Under the pieces are notes generated by a model. The model had not been told where the DNA came from. It saw only the letters and a list, made by a program, of their open reading frames with translations, and ran no database searches. A stretch of DNA of 50,277 nucleotides from Clavulina sp. PMI_390 (Eukaryota; Basidiomycota; Agaricomycetes; Cantharellales; Hydnaceae): assembly GCA_015039315.1 (NCBI GenBank), contig WIDE01000043.1:1-50277 (forward strand). Reading direction: 5' to 3'. A program made the position numbers and the translations under genes. Positions 33,927 to 44,382 of the stretch are shown piece by piece. Position 1 is the first letter of the stretch; each line of letters starts with the position of its first letter.

Positions 33927-36179
33927 ATGACCCTAGCGAGGATGTATCAAGGCGTGTTGGTGTGGCCCCTGGTGTTGCTGAGTGTTTTGAACGCGTCAAC
34001 TCCCAGTTGGGCTTTCCAACATCCTCTCGAACCTTCACCTACGCCTGGCGTCATTAATGCACCAAAAAATGAAAACCATGCTCCTATCCTCGATGCTGAG
34101 TTTGAAAGCTGGCTCTCGAATATTTCCTCTGTCTGGGGCTTGAAAGGGTTGTCGATCGCGGTGGTCCAACGTCACGATGATGAGTCTTGGCAGATGGAAA
34201 CTAAGGGATATGGAGTCAAAAATGAGGCTGGAGACCCAGTCACCCATGAAGTGAGGAATTTCCATCTTTTTAACCCTCTGAGGCTGAGTCATGAACACCG
34301 CTCTTCCTCAAGACAACCTTCGCGATCTGCTCCAATTCCAAGCTTTTCACGACCTTGGCTCTGGGAAAGCTCATAGACGAGGGAGCCACTCTCCCGAACT
34401 CCTCTCTTCCCCTCAAGTGGTCCACCAAGGTGGTCGATATCCTTGGTGATGACTGGCAGCTGGAAGACAAGGTAGCCGAGCGTTACGCAGATTTGATTGA
34501 CGTCATGAGTCATCGGACTGGCCTACCGACCCACAATCTGGGCTGGTTACGCGGGGATTCCACCGCTCAAGCGGTTAGGAACCTCCGGTACCTTCGTCCA
34601 TCAAAAGAGTTTCGCCAAGGGTAGGTGTTCCATGTTTCAGGGTATTCGTTTGTATACTTGTGCTCACGGTAGTCTCCCTAGCTGGCAATATAGCAACTGT
34701 ACGTGCAATATATTCTCCCTCCTTTCGCTTTCGTGCATGACAAATGTCTCGACCAGTGATGTATATCACAATGGCAGAGATTGTGGAACGTGTCTCGGGA
34801 CGTCCATTCATCAAATTTATTCAAGAGGAAATCGTGGACAAACTACCCCTCTCCTCTACTACTATGAATTCGACTTGGGCAAGAAAAAGCGGTCATCTCG
34901 CTGATGGCTTCGTCCAGATTCGAAGGAACGTCTCGGACGGGATAGGCCTCATGAACTCAACTTACGAGCCTACGACCTTCTTCAACGATGAAAAGCTTAA
35001 AAATATACTCGCGGGAGCCGGAGGTGCGATAATGAACGCAAAAGATGCTGTAAGTAGCTTTGCTATTCTGTAAGCTTTACACGCTCATAACGGCTGGTTT
35101 CATCATGCAGGCAATATGGCTACAGACATTATTGATGCTTGGGCGGCACCCTAATACTGGAGAATCCGTGATCCCGGCTGCGGCAGTCCTCCAAGCTGCT
35201 TCAGGCGCAACCATTGAAAGTTCCGATCCCACCGCCCCCGAGCTTAGCGTATGGGTTTACGGAGGCGGTCAAGAACAGTACGCCTATCAGGGCCATAATG
35301 TATGTTTCTACACTATCTAACATCCGGTTGTTCCTCATAATGATCTTCTCGTGTAGATTGTGCAGCATACTGGGGGTTGGCGAGGTTGGATGTCCGTAAT
35401 TTCTCGAGCCCCTCAAGACGGACTAGGAATCTCGGTGTTCACAAATTGGGACGAAGGTGCATATGTGATGGATATTATCAAATACTATCTATATGAAAAA
35501 GCTCTAGGTCTTCCTCATGTCGATTGGAGTTCGAGGTGAGTATAACACCGTGATGATAGCGTTCGGCCTTGACATGTGTTACGCTTCTTTTTAATTCTTT
35601 AGATTCCGTGCTATCGTTGAAAACGAACTTGAGGCTGAATTCCAGGATTCCGTTTCGGTTCTTCCACCTAAATCTCCAGAACAATGGAGCTCGCTGATTA
35701 CTCCATACCTTGGCACCTATCACCATGGAGCGTACGGCACATACGAGCTCTGTCCACCACCTTCGCCTAACCATAATTCGTCCTCTCGCTGCGCCGAATC
35801 AGATGAGTATTGGCGCAAGGTTGTGAAGGCAGAAGTCTCAACCCCGTCACAACCTCCCTTGATGGGCATCGTGGTTGCTCCGCCAAGGTTGAACTACATG
35901 CACCTCATTCCCACTCGGTCAGCCACCAAGTTCATAATTGAGGGGTTCAAAGTCACTACTAGTCCGACTCCACCCTCCCTAGCGGATGGCTATCGTCCGG
36001 TACGGGATGTTGTATACCCCGTGTTCGATATGAATGCAGCGATTGAATTTTCGCTCAATGAATCCGGAGTGGAAGGGTTCGGTCCCAACGGTGTGTGGGG
36101 AGCTTACGACCTTGTTGAAGGGCCCTCGGGGGAAACGGTGAGAGAGAGGGCCGAGGTCTGGTTCGACAGGATAGGCTAG
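33927..36179 (+). CDS. Secreted serine beta-lactamase-like protein, copy 2 (about 628 aa)
   Basis: Tandem paralog of the previous gene with exons 33927-34250, 34313-34620, 34682-34698, 34757-35049, 35111-35299, 35357-35535, 35603-36179. Exons 2-7 have exactly the same lengths as in copy 1 (308, 17, 293, 189, 179, 577 nt). Active-site motifs are intact: Ser-Asn-Ser-Lys, Tyr-Ser-Asn and His-Thr-Gly. Start chosen at 33927 (Met-Thr-Leu-Ala-Arg before a hydrophobic core) because it best matches the copy 1 signal peptide; in-frame ATGs at 33915 and 33942 are alternatives. The two proteins differ at many positions, mostly conservatively, so both are probably functional. It converges on the repeat-protein gene downstream. 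Confidence 0.9.
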
Positions 36180-36554
36180 GCTAGGCCAGCTTCCCCCCTG
36201 TAGTCGTGGATGAAGTTGCACAAGAAATGATATATTGACGGTGCACCTAGAAAGACAATTGGAAATTATTGACCTCTGGACTAGGTCTTGTGTAAAAATA
36301 ATTGCGAGTGGACCCCCCATCCATCTCTGAAAGTTAGAAGAGACCTCGATTATCCATTGAATGTATACAGAGCACAATATACAAGGAATTAGGTGTGACC
36401 ACCCAGCCAAGCACCTCTACTATCGTAACGGACGGCGAAAACGTAAATCAAGCTTAATGGAAGGAATAATCAACAGTAGAGCACCAGAAAGAAGATTCAA
36501 CATTGGAAGGGGAACGAAAAGGATGCGAATGGGAGAAGCGTAGGAAGATGGTAT
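36180..36554. other. Convergent intergenic spacer; start of duplicated segment
   Basis: From about 36350 the sequence matches 40660 onward (shared ttgaatgtatac, acaatatacaaggaat and cccagccaagcacctc blocks), marking one end of the repeat-protein duplication. No gene seen. Confidence 0.55.
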
Positions 36555-38628
36555 TTAGTCAAGCTCATTGATGCTAAAAAAATAGGATTGGAAATTAGTA
36601 GCTGATTTATGTGTGGACAAAAGTTCGAGCTCACCTAAACTCTTCCGAGCGCTGGAAAAGGCTCTCAAATTCACTCAAAAGATTGCCAACCAGCCCAGAG
36701 GCAGCACCACCAGCCAAACCACCGAGAACTTGGCTAGTAACACCGTTCCCGCTCGGCTTGAACGAAGAAGCACTCAAAGGAGAGCGGCGCTCCATGCCGT
36801 GAAGCTCTTCCCGAGCCATCAAGGCCTCCTCTTCATCGCGTCGGAACAAGCTCTCAAGCTTCTCGAGTAGGCCACTAACAAGGGAGTTGGCACCGACTGA
36901 GGCAAGACCACCGAGCGCAGTACCAGCGGCACCACTAGCAGAGAGACGCTTGGATGGAGTCTGGAGACTACCGATCTTGTTCATCAGAGCGGTCTTGACT
37001 GCAGCCTTGTCGGAGGCAGAGAGGGTTTGCGCCTGTTGGATGATAGTGCTGATGGAGTTGACATCACGCTTGACGTAGGCGGCCTCATCATGCACGTCAG
37101 CAAGATCGCGGCGGAAGAGACCTTCGATCTATGACATTGTGGGTTAGGATCTGCTGCAAAAACAGAATGGTCCAAGAATAAAAATACTTACCAGGCCGAG
37201 GAGGTTACCGACTAGGCCAGAAGCGGCACCACCAGCCGCGGAGGAGATGATGGATCCACCAAGACCATTGGCAGAAAGGGGAGCGCGGGCCTCAAGCTCA
37301 AAATCATCACGGCGGAAGAGGCTCTCGATCTTCTCGAGGATCCCGCTCACAAGGCCGTTAGCACCGACTGAGGCAAGACCACCAAGCGCAGTACCAGCAG
37401 CACCGCTAGCGGAAAGGCGCTTGGAGGGTGTCTGGAGAGCCCCGATCTTGTTCATGAGCGCGGTCTTGACGGTTGCCTTGTCGGAGGCGGAGAGGGTCTG
37501 CGCCTGCTTGATGATGTTGCTGATAGAATTGACATCACGCTTCATGTACATGGCCTCATCGTGTGCGTCAGCAAAATCGCGACGGAATAGACCTTCGATC
37601 TGTGAGATGACGCGTTAGAACTCATGTGAGAATAGGAACAGAAGGCATACGCACAAGCCCGAGGAGGTTGCCAACCAGGCCCGATGCGGCACCACCAGCT
37701 GCAGAGGATATGATCGAACCCCCGAGACCATTAGCTGAGAGGGGAGCGCGGGCCTCGAGCCCAAGGTCGTCACGGCCGAAGAGGCTCTCAATCTTCTCGA
37801 GGATCCCGCTGACGAGGCCATTGGCGCCAACGGACGCGAGACCGCCGAGCGCAGTACCAGCAGCACCACTAGCAGAGAGACGCTTAGCGTGACCGGGTGC
37901 CAGACTGCCAATCTTGTTCATCAAGGCTGTCTTGACAGCAGCTTTGTCGGTGGGCGAGAGAGTCTGTGCCTGTTGGATGATAGTGCTAACAGAGCTGACG
38001 TCGCGCTTCACATAAAGGTCTTCATCATGAACATCAGTGAAGTCGCGGCGGAAGAGACCCTCAATCTGGGGTGTAGACGTGTCAGGCTGAGATGCAAGGG
38101 ATAGGATAGAGAGGTGAACGAACCAGACCCAGAAGGTTTCCGACCAGTCCAGAGGCAGCACCACCTGCCGCAGATGAGATGATCGATCCTCCTAGACCGT
38201 TTGCGGAGAGAGGAGCACGAGCCTCGAGCTCCGAATCGTCGCGCTTGGCTTGGAGGGTGCCGATCTTGTTCATCAAGGCATTCTTGACAGTGGCCTTATC
38301 GGCAGGCGAAAGAGTCTGGGCCTGCTGGACGATGTTGGTGAGAGCGCCAGCGGAGCGCTCGTCGAAGTCACGCGAGAAGAGGCCCTCGAGCTATTGAAAT
38401 TTGATTAGCTCCATTTCTATGAGAAAAAAGCATGCAATCTAGGAGACCGACCTTGCTCAAGAGATTTCCAACCAAGGCCGAGGCGGCACCACCGGCTGCA
38501 GAAGAAATGACTTGAGAGCCAAGGGTAGGTGTTTCCTCGACGACGACAGGCTTGGGAGTAGAGAGAGGAGCAGCAAAGGCAGGGGAAGCAAGGAGGGCGA
38601 TAAGAGCGACAGAGGTGGCAGCGCGCAT
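36555..38628 (-). CDS. Secreted dibasic-site (KEX2-type) repeat protein 1, 591 aa
   Basis: Six minus-strand exons (38452-38628, 38124-38390, 37655-38065, 37192-37599, 36635-37128, 36555-36573) give 591 aa without cysteine. A signal peptide (Met-Arg-Ala-Ala-Thr then a hydrophobic core ending Ala-Phe-Ala-Ala) is followed by repeats. Exons 2-5 start with Leu/Ile-Glu-Gly-Leu-Phe, and exons 2-4 end in Gly-Asn-Leu-Leu-Gly-Leu. A full module of about 137 aa has a Gln-Ala-Gln-Thr-Leu-Ser...Met-Asn-Lys-Ile-Gly helical part, a Ser-Gly-Ala-Ala-Gly-Thr-Ala-Leu-Gly-Gly part, and a Ser-Ala-Ala-Gly-Gly-Ala-Ala-Ser-Gly-Leu-Val-Gly glycine-zipper part. Thirteen Lys-Arg/Arg-Arg sites (e.g. 168-169, 209-210, 305-306, 345-346, 381-382) separate them. 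The plan resembles KEX2-processed fungal repeat proteins; no named family recognised. Released peptides and role are inference. Confidence 0.85.
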
Positions 38629-38747
38629 GTTGAATGGATTTGTAGGAAGAATGAAAAGGTTGAGTGAGTGTGTGCGAGACAAGTTTCGTTAAACGAGTTG
38701 AAGAAGTAGGTGATTAAGGAGCAACTATCAAAGTGCGAGCTGTTGAA

Positions 38748-38752
38748 TTATA
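38748..38752 (-). promoter_or_regulatory. TATA-like box of repeat-protein gene 1
   Basis: Minus-strand tataa 120 bases upstream of the ATG; gene 2 has the same element at the same distance within a conserved stretch. Confidence 0.5.
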
Positions 38753-39124
38753 AAGCTTGAAATAAACGACAAGCTAGGGAGAAGCCATTGGTGAGGATAA
38801 GAGACGACAGGCAAGACGGTCGACGACGTACTGCAACCAGTGCACTAGTGTCCGAAAGAAGAACGAAAGGAGCTGGAGAAGAGGAGTTGACTGGGTGAGT
38901 GAGGAGTCTCAGCCCAACTCTTGCATGATCTTATACTCTCTCAACCGAAGGTTTGAAGCAAGTCGCTGATGTCTGTCTTTCTGCCAAGGACCGATCACTG
39001 ATGGTACTCAAGCAGCCTCCATCAGCCGTCTCATCGCTTCCTGTGAACTGGGCCTATTGTATACTCTACTGCGTCCAACCTTTGGCCAAGTCTTTTCATC
39101 ACATTCTTGGCATAGTCTGGGCAG

Positions 39125-39209
39125 ATCGTTGCATCATCGTGCACGTGACCAGGGCGGTTAGAATTCAGTGGCATCAACACACAGCCACAAAACTCTCGTC
39201 GTATCCGAG
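39125..39209 (-). promoter_or_regulatory. Conserved upstream block with CACGTG, gene 1
   Basis: About 85 bases about 500-580 bp upstream of repeat-protein gene 1 are much better conserved with gene 2 than the surrounding sequence. They include cgtgcacgtgacc (CACGTG at 39142-39147, a bHLH-type site) and ggcatcaacacacagccac. Regulatory function is inferred from the conservation. Confidence 0.45.
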
Positions 39210-40867
39210 GGGAGATCTTCACTCCGCTGTCTTGATCTCCATGGTTTGAATTTTCAATACATGAGTTAGATGATGCATCACAAAACACGCGCAACAATAA
39301 CTTCCGATTTATCGTCATTCAACGCTCCTCTTCAATGAATAGACCTCTGGAAGGTTTGTCGCTGCGCAATAAGATGAGCCAGTTGATCGCGCTACATGCC
39401 AAGTCTCCCACACCATAATAGTGGTGACACAACAGGCGCTTATTGTTTTTCATCATCACTGGGCGCTTGTCTGGTTGTGCGGCTAGAAGAACTCGTTGGC
39501 TGGCGCTTTGGCCTTAGAATATTCTTCACCGTTTCCTGCCTGTATGACTTGCTCCGATATCCACTGTGGTTTCTCTGTCTTATATTCTGCCTCTTGTTGT
39601 CGATGGGTTGCGACTGTGGTCCTCAGGAGAGGAACTTGGGCACCCCATGCCTAAGGAATTGAGCCGAGAGATAACGAGCAACCCTAGTCTACCTTCGTAC
39701 TTTCCACCATCTAGCCACTTGGGTGCTTATGGAAGGCACCTCGCCTTACAAGGTGAAAGTGCGAATAAGCTCAGTGTCGCCCGAAACAATGTGAAATGGA
39801 GTAATAGCCAAGATTGTATGGGGTCTCTTACCCAAGTCCTGGTCTCACTATCATGTGTGCATATAGGTTCTTCAACCGCTTCCATAATCCATGGCTACTT
39901 TACCGGGGCGTCAGCGCTATGGCGTCATTCGACCCGATAGGTAGCAAACTGTGTGGCTCGGGCCATGCGGACTGGGCCAAAGTGGATACCTATACCTCGT
40001 GTAGGAATATATCTTCGAGACCTCATTACCGCGTCGTGAGTGGTAGAGCAACGGGATGTTAGTGATAGCGGCTCTCTCTCAAGCACTTTTATAGACGCTT
40101 ATGGAGTTCGTGGCTTCGGCAGTTCGTTCCGTTCTAACTTACGCTAGGTCGGCTGACAGCGAGTATGAGCAGATATTAAGATTATGAAAATTTCGAGACG
40201 ATCTAATCCAAAATTAAACGCGGGAGATGCAAAGCATCGCGGCATTCGAGCGACTCGTGTGCAGCGGCAATCGCCAACACCATTATAATGGCTTTGCTGA
40301 ATCTCGGGGCTTTGAGTTTATCACCATTGTATGGCGGTAATGGGGACCAATCTTGGCCATAGTAACCCGTAATCTCCGCTTTGGCTCCCTGGGATCAGCT
40401 TTGATCTCCTCTTTTTTTCATCACCACAGGACTTGATCCTGTGTCCGTACTTCACCTCAGCTGTGGATGGAAAGATAGCATGCGTAACAACCAAATTAGG
40501 ATAACGATGTGAATAGTTCGCTGCGGGAACGCGCAAGAAGAATATCGTCCTTGTCCAACATTGCAAAATCACTTACGGTAGACCACAAATTAGATCTGAA
40601 CCGAAACTCACTCAGAGTGGAGATTTCATTCATCCTGAAAATTTGAACAGAAACCTCGATTATTGTTTGAATGTATACGGAACACAATATACAAGGAATC
40701 CGGTGTGACTACCCAGCCAAGCACCTCCACTATCGTATCATGGACATCGAGATCGTAAATCAAGCTTCATGGGGAGAATAACTACCGAGAGAGCACCGGG
40801 GGGAAGAATCAACATCAAGCGAACAACGAAATCGAGGAGGATGGGAGAGACGGAAGAAGTGGGGTAT

Positions 40868-42801
40868 TTAATCAAGCTCGTTGATGCTGAAAAATAAGAT
40901 CAGAAATTACTAGCTGGTTTGTGTCAGGGTAATAGTTTGAGCTCACCTGAATTCCTCTGAGCGCTCGAACAGGCTCTCAAATTCACTCAAAAGGTTACCA
41001 ACAAGCCCAGAGGCAGCACCACCAGCCAAACCGCCGAGAACTTGGCTAGTAACACCGTTGCCGCTCGGCTTGAACGAAGAAGCGCTCAAAGGCGAGCGGC
41101 GCTCCATGCCGTGAAGCTCTTCGCGTGCCATCAGGGCCTCCTCTTCGTCACGTTGGAACAAGCTCTCGAGCTTCTCGAGTAACCCGCCAACAAGGGATTT
41201 GGCACCGACTGAGGCGAGACCACCGAGCGCGGTACCAGCGGCACCGCTAGCCGAGAGACGCTTGGATGGACTCTGGAGACTACCGATCTTGTTCATGAGA
41301 GCGGTCTTGACTGCGGCCTTGTCGGAAGCAGAGAGGGTCTGGGCCTGCTTGATGATAGTGCTGATGGAGTTGACATCACGCTTGACGTAGGCGACCTCAT
41401 CGTGAACATCAGCGAGATCGCGGCGGAAGAGACCTTCAATCTGCACTCCCATGGGTCAGGGTCCCATGTAGAACTGGAAGGGCTCAAGGAAGAGAATACG
41501 TACAAGGCTGAGGAGGTTACCAACCAGGCCGGATGCAGCACCACCAGCCGCGGAGGAGATGAGGGACCCGCCAAGACCATTAGCAGAGAGAGGAGCGCGG
41601 GCCTCGAGCTCCTGCTCATCACGACGGAATAGCCCTTCGATCTAGGGTATTGTGAATCAGGGGACGGTATAGGAAAGAGAGTTGAGCACGAGACGTACCA
41701 GGCCAAGGAGGTTGCCGACCAACCCAGATGCAGCGCCTCCTGCAGCTGAAGAGACGATGCTTCCTCCAAGGCTACCAGCCGAAAGTCGAGCACGGGCCTC
41801 AAGCTCAGAATAGTCGCGTTCAGGGAGTTTGTCAAAACCGTGAGGCTACATATTTGTGTCAGCCTCCGCATCAAGAGTCAATTATTCGTGGACGACGAAC
41901 CAGGAACTTAAGGTTGGGCGGCAGCTTAGGGCCTGCAGGATGAGGGCGGTGGAGACGAGCTTCTAGCTCGAACTCATCACGCCCAAAGAGACTCTCAAAC
42001 TTTTTGAGGATCTCGCCGAGCGCCGCGTTAGCCTCGAGCCCGGTGCTACGTTTGGAGTTTGTAGGAGCAAGGGTGCCGATTTTGTTCATCAAGGCTGTCT
42101 TGACAGCGGCTTTATCGGCAGGCGAGAGATTCTGTGCCTGTTTGATGATTGTGCTGACGGAGCTGACGTCGCGCTTCATATAAAGGTCTTCATGAGCATC
42201 ATTGAAGTCGCGGCGGAAGAGACCCTCAATCTAAAGCGATAGATAAGTCAGACTGAGATGTAAATGATAACATAAGAGGTGAACGAACCAGTCCGAGAAG
42301 GTTTCCGACCAGCCCAGAAGCAGCACCACCAGCGGCCGAGGAGAGAAGCGAGCCGCCAAAGCTATTCGCCGACAGAGGAGCGCGAGCATCAAGCTCTGAA
42401 TCGTCACGTTTGGCTTGGAGAGTGCCAATCTTGTTCATCAGGGCATTTTTGATGGCGGCCTTATCAGCAGGCGAAAGAGTCTGGGCTTGTTGAACGATGT
42501 TGGTGAGAGCACCGGTAGAGCGCTCGTCGAAATCACGCGAGAAGAGGCTCTCGAGCTATTTAAATTTGATTAGCTCCACTTCAAAAAGCAAAACGGCAGA
42601 AATAGGAACACGAACCTTGCTCAAGAGGTTTCCAACCACGGCAGAGGCCGCACCACCAGCTGCTGAGGAGATAACCTGAGACCCAAGGGTAGGGGTCTCC
42701 TCGACGACAGGCTTGACGACGGGCTTGGGGACAGAGAGGGGAGCAGCAAAGGCAGGGGAAGCAAGGAGGGCGATGAGAGCGACGGAGGTGGCAGCGCGCA
42801 T
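40868..42801 (-). CDS. Secreted dibasic-site (KEX2-type) repeat protein 2, 526 aa
   Basis: Paralog of repeat protein 1. Seven minus-strand exons (42616-42801, 42289-42555, 41901-42230, 41699-41845, 41504-41641, 40947-41440, 40868-40886) join in phase to 526 aa. Exon 2 (267 nt), the penultimate exon (494 nt) and the last exon (19 nt, ending Ser-Ile-Asn-Glu-Leu-Asp) have the same lengths in both genes. The middle differs: exon 3 (110 aa) keeps the helical half-module but ends in an unrelated Pro-rich stretch, and exons 4 and 5 (49 and 46 aa) hold only the glycine-zipper half. It has nine Lys-Arg/Arg-Arg sites and no cysteine. The signal peptide is nearly identical, with a longer Pro/Val pro-segment. 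No disabling lesion seen; a divergent functional copy is likely. Function unknown. Confidence 0.83.
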
Positions 42802-42920
42802 GTTGATTGGGTTCGTAGGAAAAATGAGAAGATTAAGTGAAGGTGTTTGAGAGAAGTGTCGTTAAACGAGTTGAAGAAGCGGGTGATTAGTGTGCGGCTA
42901 TCAAAGTGCAATTCGTTGAA

Positions 42921-42925
42921 TTATA
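42921..42925 (-). promoter_or_regulatory. TATA-like box of repeat-protein gene 2
   Basis: Minus-strand tataa 120 bases upstream of the ATG, at the same position as in gene 1. Confidence 0.5.
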
Positions 42926-43288
42926 AGGCTTGAAAGTAATGACAAGCTAGGTACGATCTCGGTGAGGAAGAAGAGATGGCACTCATAGACGATCAATGAC
43001 TTACTGCAACCAGTGCACTAGTGTCCGAGAGAAGAACGAAAGGGGCTGGAGAAGAGGAGTTGGCTGGGTGAGTGAAGAGTCTGAGTCCGGCTCCCTCGTG
43101 GTCTTATACGTTTTCAACTGAACGTTTTTCGAGAAAGTCCTTGGTGCCACAGACCGATCAATGATGGCACTCAAGCAGCCGCCATCAGCCGTCTCATCGC
43201 TTCCTGTAAACTGGGTTAACTATCCATGGACTGAGTTCGACCTCAAGCCAAGGTTTTTCGTCGGACTTCTTGGCATACTCTGGGTAGA

Positions 43289-43371
43289 TCGTTGCATCAT
43301 AGTGCACGTGACCAGGACAGGTACAATTCAGTGGTATCAACACACAGCCACAAAACTCTCGTCGTATCCGA
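43289..43371 (-). promoter_or_regulatory. Conserved upstream block with CACGTG, gene 2
   Basis: Counterpart of 39125-39209: agtgcacgtgacc with CACGTG at 43305-43310, then ggtatcaacacacagccac and actctcgtcgtatccg. Same order and nearly the same distance from the start codon as in gene 1. Confidence 0.45.
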
Positions 43372-44382
43372 TCACTCCATTCTTTTGGTCTCCATGGCAT
43401 GACTTTCAATCTATGAAGTGAAAGGGTGCATCGCAAAACATCCGCCTCGGGCATGCCCTCCGTGTTATGGTCGCTCATAATTCTCGTTTGATGGACCGAC
43501 TATTTCAAAAGTCTACTGCCACTTGAGACGTTATTTCCTGGATAACACTACATGCCAAGTCTCCGGTACCACGAGAACGGTAACGCGGTGGGCAATATTG
43601 CTCCCATCATCACTGGGCGCCTGTCCTATGGTACTACCAGAAGAAATCGTTGGCTAACACTTCCACCCTCAAAATATTCTTCGCCATTTGCTACCACTAT
43701 GACTTGCTCTGACGTCCAATCTGGTTCCTCTAACTTGTATTCCCTTTTTTGTCGCTGATGCATCGTCGGCGTGGTTCCTAAACAGGTAAAATCTGAGCCT
43801 TCCGTGGTTTCTACAGATGGGCCAAGGTATAATGGGGAGCAAACAGTGCAAAGAAGCTCCTTGTCGCTCGAAACTTTAGAAACTAGATTAGCGAAAAGAA
43901 TTGGAATGGGAATCTTGGGGAGATCTATTATGCCTATGACGAAGTTCCACATCACATCCATCGCCCGTGGCCGCATATCTAGATCTGAGGCGCCAACTCT
44001 GCGCTCGTGTATCGTATAATATTCCATGTGTACCTGCTCACATTGCTCGGAACGTGTCTAACCTGACCCTATTCAATGAAAATGCAGCATGGTGCGCGAA
44101 GATATCGAGAGAGTCACAGCTTGATGCGATGGCACCGATTCCCCTTTTTCTCTCTAGTGCTTTTGTGTACATTTGTTGACCTCGGACCACTTCATTCTAT
44201 TTTGGTTTGTGCCAAGTCAGTCTGCGTAGAATCTAAGGTAGCTGGAATTCGGAGGAGGCCAAAAGTGAGATCGATTCCTTCAGCACCTCAAGATCTCGTT
44301 GCTCTCAGTACCATCACCAGTACTGTTATCATGGGTTCGTCCAAGCGCAGGTTTTTGGGCTCGTCGCCTCTGTCCGGTAGTG

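Follow-up and report, generated by a model that had tools for sequence, protein, structure and literature searches.

The 50,277-nt stretch of the Clavulina sp. PMI_390 (Cantharellales) genome analysed here (contig WIDE01000043.1; hereafter the window) carries on its minus strand two genes for repeat-containing proteins with a predicted secretion signal, which an initial annotation had put forward as a candidate new family of precursors processed by the protease Kex2. Gene 1 (36555..38628) encodes a 591-residue precursor in six exons (38628-38452, 38390-38124, 38065-37655, 37599-37192, 37128-36635 and 36573-36555), and gene 2 (40868..42801) a 526-residue precursor in seven (42801-42616, 42555-42289, 42230-41901, 41845-41699, 41641-41504, 41440-40947 and 40886-40868); both spliced frames are open. 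All 11 introns run from GT to AG, measure 55–63 bases and contain branch-like motifs. The rebuilt splicing agrees exactly with two NCBI gene models, as DL93DRAFT_1324781 (P0001, 395 residues) coincides residue for residue with the C-terminal part of protein 1, and DL93DRAFT_2082300 (P0002, 464 residues, partial) with the C-terminal part of protein 2 that exons 2–7 encode. The outer bounds first proposed for the pair, 36555 and 42801, were recovered to the base when the exon chains were rebuilt, and both proteins are indeed free of cysteine. The proposed signal peptide stands as a judgment by eye: each protein opens with a hydrophobic stretch of 19 residues ending in AFA (MRAATSVALIALLASPAFA in gene 1, at 38572..38628; 42745..42801 in gene 2, both minus strand), and similar start exons were found 11 times, two in the window and nine across 7 of 12 family loci in the genome assembly.

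The precursors are built from a small set of recurring pieces, which we call alpha, beta-B, beta-C and acidic spacers. The repeat unit corresponds to a single exon encoding 136 residues (37192..37599, minus strand) and contains, in order, the tail of the previous beta-C, an acidic spacer, alpha, beta-B, a second acidic spacer and most of the following beta-C; the unit at 37655-38065 is 85% identical to it. The last large exon of gene 1 (36635..37128, minus strand; its counterpart in gene 2 lies at 40947..41440, minus strand) runs through a unit as far as beta-B, then encodes an SPLS-type beta peptide at the C-terminus and begins an acidic tail (SEEFSINELD) that the last exon completes. Beta-C (18 copies of 36 residues headed by AP or SP) and beta-B (14 copies of 34 residues) are both glycine-rich with a charge of −3 to 0, and a pair of residues ending in Arg follows all 32 copies; since the search patterns preset length and head, the equal length of copies is not an independent result. 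A beta-B and a beta-C copy from gene 1, compared with the AP removed, line up gap-free and in register. They share 15 of 34 residues, and none of 5000 shuffles (mean −12) reached their score of 66. The acidic spacers have 7–12 residues and, among the forms counted, a charge of −2 to −4.

Alpha is exemplified by the 40-residue copy DVNSISNIIKQAQ...TPSKR, terminal KR included (37417..37536), with further copies at 36946-37065, 37880-38002 and 41258-41377, all on the minus strand. It is well conserved in relatives. Mean pairwise identity is 0.73 across 17 matched copies, and a pattern search found its core, LSxxDKxTVKxALxxKI, or close forms of it in 10 of 17 database relatives that carry no organism label (hereafter the 17-relative set). 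The 34-residue core has a charge of +1 to +3, and an AlphaFold2 model built from 11 sequences, with a predicted local distance difference test (pLDDT) score of 84, places helices at residues 2–13 and 17–35, so that alpha is predicted to be a cationic helical hairpin of 38–39 residues.

The 13 KR or RR sites originally counted in protein 1 and the nine in protein 2 were reproduced, against shuffled means of 2.5 and 2.7, with 0 and 3 of 5000 shuffles, respectively, attaining the observed counts, and the intervals of 36–41 residues reported for protein 1 measured 41, 40, 36, 40 and 36. As a count of candidate cutting sites these figures are nonetheless too low once [LIVM]-x-x-R is included. A lone Arg has Leu, Ile, Val or Met at P4 (counting back from the cut) in 7 of 8 cases in protein 1 (p 4e-4) and 10 of 13 in protein 2 (p 1e-4), where the relatedness of the copies makes these binomial values, like those from shuffling, overstate independence. 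We extended the analysis to nine proteins (proteins 1 and 2 plus P0003–P0009) and to the 17-relative set, with P0009 common to both. Among the 174 Arg residues beyond residue 19 in the nine proteins, 123 are dibasic and 43 are lone with an aliphatic residue (L, I, V or M) at P4, so that the site rule (dibasic or [LIVM]-x-x-R) covers 166; in the 17-relative set, 112 are dibasic and 44 lone with an aliphatic P4, and 156 of 182 fit, the aliphatic P4 occurring at 44 of 70 lone Arg against 23% expected. A digest by both kinds of site gives mostly regular pieces, whereas dibasic sites alone give an irregular one with pieces of 82 and 105 residues. Some of the Arg residues of the 17-relative set that do not fit lie, by eye, in apparent intron read-through ends of gene models. 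In accordance with the rule, LxxR is described as an expanded Kex2 motif that allows other aliphatic residues in the Leu position (PMC8528282), and some products of mushroom precursors appear to be cut after a single Arg (PMC9769878).

The ends of the beta peptides bear on whether the proteins are processed. In all 81 Clavulina beta tails that could be read within one exon, Arg occupies P1, with RR in 64, KR in 12, QR in 2, GR in 2 and ER in 1; this scoring covered 81 of 119 copies, the other 38 being unscored mostly since, by eye, the exon ends there. The 17-relative set has Arg at P1 in 28 of 32 tails. Were the proteins instead secreted whole or cut at few sites, as repetitive helical wall proteins in which the Arg clusters serve as charge spacers, then a P1 that is always Arg and never Lys, next to a variable P2, would go unexplained, and so would the aliphatic P4 rule. 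We regard secretion of whole proteins as rather improbable, and cleavage of the precursors at the predicted sites, judged from sequence, as quite probable.

The repeats are not confined to the window. A six-frame search of the Clavulina assembly with one unit gave at least 104 matches on at least 11 contigs, and profile searches of 12 assembly loci plus the window counted 48 alpha and 119 beta copies, 167 in total. In databases, 28 relatives were found at expectation values (E) up to 1, and all 11 that carry an organism label are from Clavulina sp. PMI_390; these searches scored the approximately 7,990 candidates with the most shared words, a scope on which restriction to Clavulina is unproven. 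The assembly itself seems incomplete, since the start exons found do not include that of P0007, which lies on a contig of 3,341 bases, and since the contig of P0004, whose start exon lies on C144, differs in length (433357 against 426376). Within the family, more divergent members lie at C248:115915-123294 of the assembly, P0008 has Thr/Pro-rich inserts between units and possibly belongs to a separate branch, and in the NCBI model P0013 (DL93DRAFT_2100858) alpha/beta repeats run into ATP synthase subunit K (PF11022, E 7e-13), possibly because two adjoining genes were merged in annotation.

Genes 1 and 2 look like tandem duplicates, with 436 of 487 aligned residues identical (synonymous divergence dS 0.61, nonsynonymous divergence dN 0.06, dN/dS 0.10) and 469 of 577 aligned bases identical across the 600 bases upstream. 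Their last large exons share 157 of 164 residues (dS 0.38, dN 0.02, dN/dS 0.05), and comparisons among the units of gene 1 gave dN/dS of 0.06, 0.12 and 0.20 at dS of 0.85–1.5, all as simple Nei-Gojobori counts whose higher dS values are close to saturation. Both the genes and the single repeats are thus under purifying selection, and the dN/dS of 0.05–0.20 together with the unit dS indicates that the repeats are old and maintained rather than recently expanded. The repeat plan with dibasic punctuation noticed initially is real. Chance repeats, an assembly artefact or pseudogenes would have to be reconciled with this selection, with the recurrence of start exons (11) and peptide copies (167) across 12 loci and the window, and with NCBI gene models made independently, and we give such explanations practically no weight.

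By sequence, the family fits the class of Kex2-processed repeat proteins (KEPs) as a new family of a known kind; its novelty holds within the searchable data, and the processing that the initial annotation ascribed to it is predicted. The definition of Umemura 2020 asks for at least three repeats, each of at least 8 and at most 100 residues, between KR, KK, RK or RR (PMC7329392). In our own count of pieces, made without that survey's script, we found in protein 1 alpha pieces of 41, 40 and 40 residues, beta-C pieces of 46, 82, 46 and 55, and the HDE spacer at 14, 14 and 14; protein 2 falls barely within the definition, with beta-C pieces of 46, 46 and 55 and another piece of 105 above the limit. 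Le Marquer 2019 requires repeats to make up at least 15% of the protein (PMC6339444), and by our own piece count, not that pipeline, the fraction is 0.94 in protein 1 and 0.96 in protein 2. The KEPs of these surveys and of Vogt 2022 share with the Clavulina proteins three or more repeats between KR or RR and a mostly repetitive sequence, and probably, as judged here by eye, a secretion signal. The Clavulina precursors differ in carrying several repeated piece types each and in having mono-Arg LxxR sites that would complete the digest. Such a mixed precursor is unusual yet has precedent, since 77 of the 1193 KEPs in Le Marquer 2019 have two motif types and two have three (PMC6339444).

Individual known systems resemble the pair in plan. 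Ustilago maydis Rep1 has 12 repeats of 34–55 residues between Kex2 sites and yields amphipathic peptides of 35–53 residues plus one of 228 (PMC4617103). It is described with one kind of amphipathic repeat, and surface-active, amyloid-like fibrils are characteristic of the repellents. Candida albicans Ece1, whose plan has been likened to that of Rep1 (PMC2515848), is likewise a precursor from which Kex2 cuts a linear peptide (PMC9769878). Precursors of dikaritins, ribosomally synthesised and post-translationally modified peptides (RiPPs) of the ustiloxin type, also combine a signal peptide with Kex2-spaced repeats (PMC9769878). At least 18 matches to UstYa (DUF3328) were found in the assembly, all on C2, C237, C60 and C198 and none on the 11 family contigs listed; since UstYa genes are not on the contigs where the family was found, cyclised products of dikaritin type are unlikely here. 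Separately, a group of UstYa matches on both strands at C2:52753-90023, several with internal stops where introns are possible, suggests that another part of this genome holds a dikaritin-type RiPP region.

No strong match to a characterised unrelated family emerged from Pfam, NCBIfam or PDB: the first two gave weak, composition-type matches and no useful family, a PDB sequence search with protein 1 gave none, and Foldseek with the alpha model returned 0 matches at E up to 10. A YidB match to P0008 (25.9 bits against a cut-off of 24.3) falls on a glycine-rich stretch and was not accepted as homology. The alpha profile mainly hits the beginning of the haemoglobin alpha chain, over 12 residues (LSxADKxxVKxA). 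E is about 0.6 where the chain is an ordinary single one, and the value of 0.0002 comes from fused double chains alone; a few other PDB chains gave short matches that were weaker still. The likeness looks like a common helix-start motif, and haemoglobin was set aside. Hydrophobins gave no match in the Clavulina assembly, and control genomes likewise gave none, so that this negative carries no weight. Rfam had no match over positions 36000-44000 of the window. Elsewhere in the window, all on the plus strand, lie ordinary genes: a short-chain dehydrogenase (PF00106, 17335-18039), a squalene epoxidase (PF08491, 27169-28218) and a beta-lactamase-like serine hydrolase (PF00144, 31208-31915). Our literature searches found nothing joining glycine zippers with Kex2 or Kex2 with Cantharellales, and nothing on glycine-rich amphipathic Kex2 peptides in basidiomycetes; neither PMC7329392 nor PMC9769878, whose supplementary KEP tables are outside this scope, has the word Clavulina in its main text. 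The gene family thus looks undescribed within the literature covered.

The explanation we favour, and consider reasonably probable as a whole, is that the two genes are tandem duplicates in a multi-copy family of KEP-type precursors that release several different peptides together. A Kex2-type protease late in the secretory pathway would cut after KR, after RR and after an Arg whose P4 position holds Leu or another aliphatic residue, the lone-Arg motifs being LEAR, LFGR, LFSR and LMAR, and a carboxypeptidase would trim off the basic tails. A dipeptidyl peptidase may then take the AP or SP head off beta-C, shortening it from 36 to 34 residues, so that it would match beta-B in length and in its LSA.. 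start. A DPPIV_N gene is present at C262 of the assembly, and an XP head stands at 23 of 124 predicted N-termini of the nine proteins, with XA at 6 more; we hold this trimming to be possible, at less than even chances. The products would be the alpha hairpin of 38–39 residues, the glycine-rich, neutral to anionic beta-B and beta-C, each with a short amphipathic C-terminal helix, and the acidic spacers, which could hold the precursor soluble. Their likeliest function, which we propose tentatively, is a self-assembling, repellent-like coat on the hyphal surface, formed by the glycine-rich beta peptides with alpha as a folded, soluble partner. A more specific version strikes us as a long shot: alpha and beta would be obligate partners, released together in constant proportion (roughly two or more beta for each alpha) and joining after secretion in a heteromeric coat or pore, and the spacers would be disposable inhibitors.

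Several observations weigh against this explanation. Arg residues outside the site rule number 8 of 174 in the nine proteins and 26 of 182 in the 17-relative set, in which 4 of 32 beta tails also lack Arg at P1 (GF in 3, GH in 1), and the p-values for the sites carry the dependence among copies noted above. An XP head is rare in the 17-relative set, at 5 of 104 predicted N-termini, so that dipeptidyl trimming is no family-wide rule. The AlphaFold2 model of a whole unit was uninformative (pLDDT 45) and was not used. Amphipathicity over the best 18 residues is not significant (p 0.54 for alpha, 0.10 for beta-B and 0.20 for beta-C), and the hydrophobicity of the beta peptides is moderate for a coat, with a mean best 19-residue Kyte-Doolittle value of 1.1–1.2; the customary transmembrane threshold is about 1.6. 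The protease is the weakest point: PF01483, five DNA motif patterns and the yeast Kex2 query revealed no Kex2 gene in the assembly, in a search that had no positive control and would be limited by genes broken by introns and by the apparent incompleteness of the assembly; the eight PF00082 matches look, by eye, sedolisin-like or proteinase-K-like. This result is also what speaks for secretion of whole proteins. Since three kex2 genes are reported from C. cinerea and other agaricomycetes (PMC9769878), it more likely reflects a limit of the search or assembly than a real loss, and if Kex2 were truly missing, another Arg-specific protease would have to act in its place.

With the same processing, the beta peptides, alone or with alpha, might instead act as a set of linear cytolytic or antimicrobial peptides that insert into the membranes of competing or grazing organisms. 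The properties of the peptides point both ways. The last 14 residues of the two glycine-rich peptides are amphipathic (p 0.017 and 0.032, in windows picked after sequence inspection, as were the helices), and alpha is predicted to be cationic. Of the amphipathicity first ascribed to the Gln/Lys-rich segment, the first helix of alpha retains it (p 0.017) and the second does not (p 0.87). The glycine-zipper claim likewise holds in part: averaged across related copies, the GxxxG excess is clear in the APLS-type (beta-C) peptide, where none of 500 shuffles equalled it, and weak in the LSAS-type, where 29 of 500 did. Candidalysin, a linear KEP product, is cytolytic, and yet in the same paper's published test synthetic C. 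cinerea KEP peptides had no antibacterial activity (PMC9769878). With beta peptides that are neutral to anionic and a non-amphipathic second alpha helix, we consider a membrane-active set unlikely.

Clavulina is ectomycorrhizal, and we take PMI strains to be isolates from Populus roots. The peptides could accordingly, again after the same processing, target the plant partner in a root association, like the Laccaria KEP MiSSP8, knock-down of which strongly impairs mycorrhization with Populus (PMC7329392; cited in PMC9769878). The family, however, shows strong purifying selection and not fast change. C. cinerea is a saprotroph. It too has at least 22 predicted KEPs (PMC9769878), and a symbiotic role seems improbable to us.

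If the favoured explanation of a mixed peptide set is right, Clavulina would add to the KEPs an expanded family whose precursors deliver a fixed set of different pieces rather than copies of one peptide, and its conserved, probably folded alpha partner would give a specific assembly hypothesis for the class. Since the LxxR sites are here almost as regular as KR and RR, counting dibasic sites alone would miss part of the digest, which suggests that surveys of KEPs may need to consider such sites when products are defined.

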